Source of the DNA: Acidobacteriota bacterium
GTDB lineage: Bacteria; Acidobacteriota; Terriglobia; Acidiferrales; UBA7541
Assembly: GCA_003223215.1 (NCBI GenBank)
Contig: QHYH01000084.1
Span: 1 to 64,000 of the forward strand
DNA: 64,000 bases
Direction: 5' to 3'
The notes beneath the pieces are model-generated. The model had not been told where the DNA came from. It saw nothing but the letters and a program-made list of their open reading frames with translations, and searched no databases. This document shows, piece by piece, positions 22,344 through 22,496 of the stretch (positions are counted from its first letter, which is position 1; every line of letters starts with the position of its first letter). A program made the position numbers and the translations under genes.

Positions 22344-22376
22344 AAAAAACCCTCCGTGCCAAAGTGCTCGGAGGGT
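22344..22376 (-). terminator. Intrinsic terminator in the leader of the ThrC-like gene
   Basis: On the minus strand ACCCTCCG and CGGAGGGT pair perfectly around a 12-base loop, followed by a T run. It lies 14 bases after the SAM-II-like aptamer and about 160 bases before the start codon, as expected of a riboswitch expression platform. Confidence 0.85.
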
Positions 22377-22389
22377 CTCTAAGAAACTC

Positions 22390-22443
22390 TGCCAGCTCTT
22401 TAGCAGTTTTTTACGTGGAGCAAGTTGCCCTAAATCGCCACGT
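22390..22443 (-). promoter_or_regulatory. SAM-II-like riboswitch aptamer
   Basis: The minus strand reads ACGTGG-C-GATTTA, then CTTGC-T-CCACGT (P1 closing strand), an A-rich run and GCTAAAG. This order (P1, GAUUU, CUUGC, P1', AAA, GCUAAA) is the conserved pattern of the SAM-II (SAM_alpha) class, an H-type pseudoknot that binds S-adenosylmethionine. P1 has six Watson-Crick pairs. A promoter lies just upstream and a terminator just downstream. I could not confirm the second helix by hand. Confidence 0.75.
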
Positions 22444-22467
22444 GTCGCCGCAACCGCAGCTACTCCT

Positions 22468-22496
22468 TTTATGCCGCAAATCACTGCCAAAGTCAA
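22468..22496 (-). promoter_or_regulatory. Promoter of the riboswitch-ThrC-MoaD transcript
   Basis: On the minus strand TTGACT (22496-22491) and CATAAA (22473-22468) are 17 bases apart. Transcription would start near 22461, about 18 bases before the aptamer. Confidence 0.6.

Follow-up and report, generated by a model that had tools for sequence, protein, structure and literature searches.

The minus-strand leader at positions 22344-22496 of the window, by which we mean the whole 64,000-nucleotide stretch of acidobacterial DNA analysed here, very probably carries a SAM-II-type riboswitch variant of the Acidobacteriota that would shut down a probable metM-metO operon through premature termination at high SAM. 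The aptamer, its homologs, the P1/P2 pairing, the gene context, the exchange of SAM-I and SAM-II before the gene and the complementarity between an aptamer strand and the terminator loop were all computed.

Anatomy of the leader and the predicted switch

The original prediction placed a promoter, a SAM-II-like aptamer and a terminator in this leader, and the observation is confirmed as real. The blocks that it had named (i.e., P1 ACGTGG/CCACGT, GATTTA, CTTGC, the A-run and GCTAAAG) are all read in the SAM-II order, between a promoter with 17-base spacing and a terminator hairpin with a T run:

22491..22496, minus strand: -35 hexamer TTGACT, read from sequence
22468..22473, minus strand: -10 hexamer CATAAA, with a 17-base spacer to the -35 hexamer
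22447..22460, minus strand: 5' hairpin GCUGC-GGUU-GCGGC, close to where the transcript is predicted to begin
22438..22443, minus strand: 5' strand of aptamer P1, ACGUGG (DNA ACGTGG), from the window-derived alignment and pairing analysis
22419..22437, minus strand: aptamer loop L1, containing GAUUUA and the 5' strands of P2a and P2b
22436-22431, minus strand: GATTTA (GAUUUA) in loop L1
22429-22427, minus strand: 5' strand of P2a, GGC, within loop L1
22424-22420, minus strand: 5' strand of P2b, CTTGC (CUUGC), within loop L1
22413..22418, minus strand: 3' strand of aptamer P1, CCACGU (DNA CCACGT)
22412-22407, minus strand: A-run
22394..22404, minus strand: aptamer 3' strand GCUAAAG-A-GCU, with GCTAAAG at 22404-22398
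22358..22404, minus strand: predicted antiterminator (19 pairs, dG -19.8 kcal/mol) from a fold prediction of the segment from GCUAAAG through the terminator 3' arm, the energy of the upstream aptamer and SAM-bound pseudoknot lying outside the calculation
22344..22375, minus strand: whole intrinsic terminator, stem and TTTTTT
22375-22369 and 22356-22350, minus strand: terminator stem CCCTCCG/CGGAGGG, with six T at 22349-22344

The promoter (22468..22496) is sigma-70-like in its sequence. As judged by eye in the aligned leaders, TTGACW recurs at -35 in relatives, NATAAA recurs at -10 in most leaders of the genus g1 (the exceptions include L026 and L033-L035), and the 5' hairpin is maintained with altered letters. 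A generic promoter/terminator scan of the window, whose rules call for T as the final letter of the -10 hexamer and allow loops no longer than 8, reported neither the leader promoter nor the terminator. A second CCCTCC, which recurs in many relatives, lies directly past the terminator T-run (window positions 22331-22336) and could pair with the terminator GGAGGG.

The strand at 22394..22404 is predicted to be the partner of P2b and P2a when SAM is bound and to serve as the 5' strand of the antiterminator otherwise. Without SAM, the nascent strand GCUAAAGAGCUGG would pair with the linker and with the 5' arm and loop of the terminator to form a long antiterminator, and transcription would continue into metM. 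With SAM, the GCUAAAG/GCU strand would be locked in the P2 pseudoknot, so that the terminator would form and the transcript would end. At the ends of the predicted antiterminator, GCUAAAG (22404-22398) pairs with the terminator loop CUUUGGC (22364-22358), while in its interior GCUGG, AG and GUUUC are paired with GAGAC, CU, CC and AGC. Given that the antiterminator needs the same strand as P2, ligand binding would free the terminator, and it is from this model that we infer both the OFF direction of the switch and the order of its folding.

When the same segment is folded in the g1 and g12 genera, all 27 distinct sequences pair GCUAAAG with a terminator loop of CUUUGGC or CUUUGGU, and the linker and 5' terminator arm are paired inside the antiterminator. 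Across the phylum, the loop motif is missing from 31 of 131 distinct elements, and in 7 no terminator was detected. In the elements with the motif, the letter after GCUAAA and the corresponding loop letter are G-C in 55 and C-G in 21, together 76 of 93, which are not 76 independent events since the G/C changes are mostly inherited: one independent change was counted on the metM tree (29 of 35 SAM-II rows usable) and none on the CGS-like (8 rows) and metY (6 rows) trees. The strand/loop pairing was further compared in 86 distinct pairs retained from the 131 elements after those without terminator, with a weak stem or in duplicate had been dropped. The mean was -10.03 for an element's own pairing, vs. 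-8.61 when loops were permuted (none of 2000 permutations was as low) and -5.01 when they were shuffled, the own pairing being better in 81 of the 86; swapping the G/C letter weakened the pairing in 68 of 80, left 2 unchanged and strengthened 10.

These values argue against a real SAM aptamer that operates without the terminator-loop antiterminator, either next to a constitutive attenuator or by translational control, and so does the position of the start codon of the downstream ThrC-like gene, ~160 bases past the terminator. Such an arrangement nevertheless finds a parallel in the metA leader of S. meliloti, for which the pertinent passage of PMC9373788 describes a terminator and no predictable SAM-II-driven antiterminator, and it is also favored by the small number of independent covariation events in the acidobacterial elements; we consider it unlikely. 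With the shared-strand antiterminator as the preferred reading, it should be noted that the two S. meliloti SAM-II elements compared here (85.2 and 85.1 bits in Rfam, before metZ- and metA-like genes as named by eye) both lack a loop motif complementary to GCUAAA(G/C), in contrast to the window group, which suggests from a comparison of n = 2 that this design may be particular to the acidobacterial group.

The ThrC-like gene as probable metM

Two genes follow the leader:

20921..22183, minus strand: ThrC-like PALP (PLP) enzyme of 420 aa, best read as MetM
20532..20819, minus strand: ThiS/MoaD-type sulfur carrier of 95 aa that ends IAGG-SEGC, best read as MetO

According to the original prediction, SAM-II would not be expected to control a threonine synthase. 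This objection is not supported: the gene is a ThrC paralog linked to a carrier, the genome has a second ThrC and no match for MetX (at 1e-30) or MetA, and orthologs of the gene follow SAM-I. The ThrC-like protein is probably MetM, a homocysteine synthase using O-phosphohomoserine, as suggested by its linkage to the ThiS/MoaD-type carrier and by a genome in which neither MetX (at E 1e-30) nor MetA gave a match. MetM would form homocysteine from O-phosphohomoserine and the sulfur held on the MoaD-like protein. Since homocysteine synthesis is upstream of methionine and SAM, the switch would close a feedback loop, and control of a homocysteine-forming MetM by a SAM sensor would be nothing unusual.

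A similar system is the MetM-MetO pair described for Streptomyces albulus by Hasebe et al. (2024); as outlined in a citing paper, a ThrC homolog occurs there together with a sulfur-carrier protein, and metM is preceded by a SAM riboswitch (PMC12172450). The likeness to the window, in ThrC-type enzyme, sulfur carrier and upstream SAM riboswitch, is thus drawn from the description in the excerpted part of that citing paper, where the riboswitch class is unstated; the same excerpt relates that a cyanobacterial MetM homolog is not fully MetM-like in its cells (PMC12172450). Of 77 loci of the ThrC-like gene, 53 have a ThiS/MoaD-type gene linked to it and following it, 7 show a weak match, 10 show none and 7 have too little flanking sequence. 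The carriers of relatives either terminate in Gly-Gly or extend beyond it by tails that are short and variable, some being longer and Cys-rich; that of the window has four residues (SEGC) past Gly-Gly, encoded at window positions 20535-20546. Judging from these termini, the tail may need to be trimmed before thiocarboxylation.

The MetX route was considered, and MetX is likely absent from the window's genome, where no match was obtained at E 1e-30. At this limit, MetX matches were found in 16 of 89 family genomes (best 2.7e-45) and in 7 of 14 control genomes, none of which reached the 500-bit model cut-off. Without a MetA match or a MetX match at 1e-30, the cell probably forms neither acetyl- nor succinyl-homoserine. 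The genome has 14 matches to PF01053 enzymes, so that another homocysteine route is possible.

A genuine threonine synthase under a real riboswitch, with SAM setting how O-phosphohomoserine is split between threonine and methionine, was set aside as the main reading. It would agree with the TIGR00260 thrC score of the window protein (278 bits, cut-off 167), with the best NCBIfam models and five nearest solved structures, all of which are threonine synthases, and with the threonine synthase and deaminase activity ascribed to the M. aeruginosa homolog in the relevant part of PMC12172450. Weighing against it are the linked carrier, the missing MetX (1e-30) and MetA matches, the gene tree, and a second, distinct ThrC-like gene in the same genome (34% identity). 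Among the family genomes listed, paralogs of this kind are frequent: a ThrC-like match at 0.001 occurs in 88 of 89, many of which have just the ~33%-identical paralog. In addition, SAM-I or SAM-II is found on 39 of 40 class-wide leaders of the orthologous gene, vs. no SAM riboswitch in a scan of two paralog loci (L002 and L052). We therefore regard a genuine threonine synthase as quite improbable and retain the MetM reading.

Conservation of the aptamer and its relation to SAM-II

The known SAM-II/metA element, represented in Rfam by RF00521 (SAM_alpha) and RF01726 (SAM-II long loops), shares with the window element the P1 stem CGUGG/CCACG, the P2 pseudoknot, the loop with GAUUU and CUUGC, the A-rich strand and GCUAAA. 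An upstream promoter, a frequent terminator and methionine genes downstream are also common to both, as noted in the part of PMC1273637 that bears on them. The two differ in that P2a of the window is 3 bp long (GGC with GCU) vs. the GGCC block of the SAM_alpha consensus, and in that the window group is mostly below the Rfam cut-offs and is hosted by the Acidobacteriota.

No Rfam family reaches its gathering score (i.e., the curators' detection limit, which is no biological feature) anywhere in the window. With lax filters, SAM_alpha is the best match on the leader (23.0 bits, E 0.0059, cut-off 36) and SAM-II the third by bits (20.8 bits, E 0.19, cut-off 44). The original prediction had named a failure of the Rfam model as grounds for abandoning it: both scores do lie under the cut-offs, but in a search of the whole 8.8-Mb genome the leader is the top match of both SAM_alpha (E 0.021) and SAM-II (E 0.67). 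At those loose limits, unrelated control genomes also gave matches (14 of 14 for SAM_alpha, 10 of 14 for SAM-II), so the Rfam scores are by themselves weak proof.

The core is nearly unchanged upstream of the orthologous gene at 28 of the 30 ortholog loci first taken and at 8 of 20 additional ones. One of the 28, L024, breaks off within P1, and the two loci outside the 28, L021 and L032, are truncated by the ends of their contigs. The full aptamer is found in 35 orthologous leaders, representing 20 distinct sequences with 45 of 56 columns invariant, from which the covariance model R1 was built. Among 95 genomes of the order, R1 gave 38 strong matches (E <=4e-6), a single copy per genome, 34 in g1 and 4 in g12 and none in another genus; five weaker matches (E 0.003-0.27) outside g1/g12 are excluded from the 38. 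All 38 genomes have a close ortholog of the ThrC-like gene, and none was found in the four g1/g12 genomes that lack a strong match, three of which are only 71-73% complete.

Across the Acidobacteriota, R1 matches occur in 50 of 396 genomes (E <=0.1, own genome included), often several per genome. Of the R1-found loci scanned with Rfam (20 of the 29 phylum loci L093-L121), L121 alone passes a cut-off: this element precedes a metH-type gene and scores 43.5 bits with R1 and 45.8 bits with RF00521, and thereby ties the window element to recognised SAM-II. A pattern scan of named genomes yielded 111 stretches, and the record titles among the 80 of 111 matches listed are acidobacterial but for three, which read 'bacterium' only, 'Actinomycetota' (scaffold WN_Acidobacteria) and 'Betaproteobacteria' (L162, CAJCHZ010000024.1; probably mislabelled). 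The statement in the original prediction that SAM-II occurs mostly in alphaproteobacteria thus overlooks a wide set of elements in this phylum; the excerpts among the matches listed from the open-licence literature contained no placement of SAM-II in Acidobacteria or Acidobacteriota.

Pairing was assessed over 42 aligned matches (39 distinct sequences), the counts of which include L122 of genome G071, the weakest R1 match among them, which has neither GATTTA nor GCTAAA and is, from its sequence, probably false. The conserved succession GAUUU...CUUGC...A-rich...GCUAAA is present in the window element and its relatives. Over P1, P2a and P2b together, 92.7% of the cells are paired, vs. 27-47% with slid partners. 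The P1 stem (5-6 bp) is paired in 93.1% of cells, with a two-sided change somewhere in three of its six pairs; as P1 is invariant in the genus, its support comes from distant relatives. The original prediction also depended on a second pseudoknot helix, and this helix, in which the P1 loop pairs with the 3' strand, can form, with 95.5% (P2a) and 90.7% (P2b) of cells paired in the 39 distinct sequences; 17 of the 39 lack the outer C-G pair of P2b, and P2a exchanges C-G, U-A and U-G across the alignment. In a shuffle control, which takes no account of relatedness, the paired cells were as high in 0 of 500 and the covariation score in 6 of 500, while the number of pairs with two-sided change was unremarkable (62 of 500 as high).

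The 117 elements of the 111 stretches are followed by ThrC-like (metM) genes in 48 cases, CGS-like in 22, metY in 14, metH-type in 3 and metX-like in 2. In 14 others the ORF is unclassified, sometimes because a wrong frame was the longest, and a further 14 have no ORF, at least partly due to the end of the stored sequence piece. In a run of NCBIfam on 10 of 27 downstream proteins, models were passed for aspartate kinase (lysC-like), homocysteine synthase, homocysteine S-methyltransferase and thrC, and the MetX-like and two CGS-like proteins matched their families under the model cut-offs. The downstream gene set is a methionine regulon. With its homologs, its pseudoknot pairing and this placement before methionine genes, the element bears out the proposed SAM-II-like riboswitch with terminator, its Rfam scores below cut-offs notwithstanding.

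Two SAM-II-type elements stand in tandem, ~114-141 bases apart, on the ThrC-like gene loci L105, L113, L115, L120, L128, L196, L200, L272, L273 and L283, and by eye the first element of L105 has its own terminator. SAM-II-type elements are also found upstream of rarer ORFs at L136, L152, L184, L210, L172 and L233; by eye, these ORFs are nitrite/sulfite-reductase-like, DinB-like, SDR and aspartate-semialdehyde-dehydrogenase-like.

From this regulon and from the exchange with SAM-I, we infer SAM as the ligand. An aptamer of SAM-II fold that has shifted to SAH, homocysteine or O-phosphohomoserine would be consistent with the scores under the Rfam cut-offs, and SAM aptamers do have close variants that bind a new ligand (PMC10853860). 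The relatives of the element, however, precede metX-, metY-, metH- and lysC-like genes, the ordinary SAM set, and related genomes have SAM-I in its stead before the same gene, which makes a changed ligand highly improbable. A chance resemblance in an ordinary attenuator, which only the lack of an Rfam match above cut-off would favor, is rejected as having a negligible probability in view of the core in 35 orthologous leaders and the R1 matches across order (38 of 95 genomes, strong) and phylum (50 of 396).

Exchange of SAM-I and SAM-II before one gene

The fold of SAM-I is unrelated to that of SAM-II. In sister lineages, SAM-I (RF00162, S box) occupies the same position before the orthologous gene: it is above the gathering score at 10 orthologous leaders from other genera of the same family, and an eleventh SAM-I locus, L048, is cut by a contig end. 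Among 40 class-wide leaders of the orthologous gene, selected by the author from 39 of 136 genomes with a match, 33 carry SAM-I (17 + 16), 6 carry SAM-II and one (L260) carries neither, and both classes were found together in none of the 40.

The gene tree comprises 78 proteins (41 with SAM-I, 35 with SAM-II, 1 with neither and 1 paralog), L048-L050 (partial or cut) and other g1 copies having been left out of the SAM-II rows. The SAM-II rows fall into two groups, that of the window is nested within a SAM-I-bearing clade, and the minimum number of class changes is 2. The fork uniting the window's group has an SH-aLRT of 94 (not starred). As the tree is a quick one with a very long outgroup, the direction is not firm, and a change from SAM-I to SAM-II is probable from these sequences.

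In a genome-wide search with stricter filters for SAM-I, 36 of the 38 SAM-II-bearing family genomes, including that of the window, gave no SAM-I match. The two exceptions, G028 and G085, have both classes, with SAM-I before a cysteine-desulfurase-like gene (named by eye); these SAM-I elements are at L313:1857-1972 and L314:1266-1377. Perhaps the two classes divide sulfur supply and sulfur use between them in one genome. A 2007 survey, in the portion that touches on this matter, reported no species with both SAM-I and SAM-II (PMC2258182).

These findings can be combined in a broader proposal, to which we give an even chance: that the SAM-I before metM was swapped in place for a SAM-II-type element in the lineage ancestral to both g12 and the window's genus, that this element was captured from another acidobacterial locus, and that the acidobacterial SAM-II elements are a broad, largely uncatalogued group with a shared-strand switching design. 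If true, it would allow the exchange of two unrelated RNA sensors for the same metabolite to be traced on a single gene, and the gene tree that records the exchange would be useful for understanding how riboswitches arise and swap. The riboswitch described here extends SAM-II-type regulation across the Acidobacteriota, where it is mostly hidden by the Rfam cut-offs, and proposes a compact switch design in which an aptamer strand doubles as the antiterminator strand. It also provides regulatory and genomic evidence that many proteins of this phylum annotated as 'threonine synthase' are homocysteine synthases.
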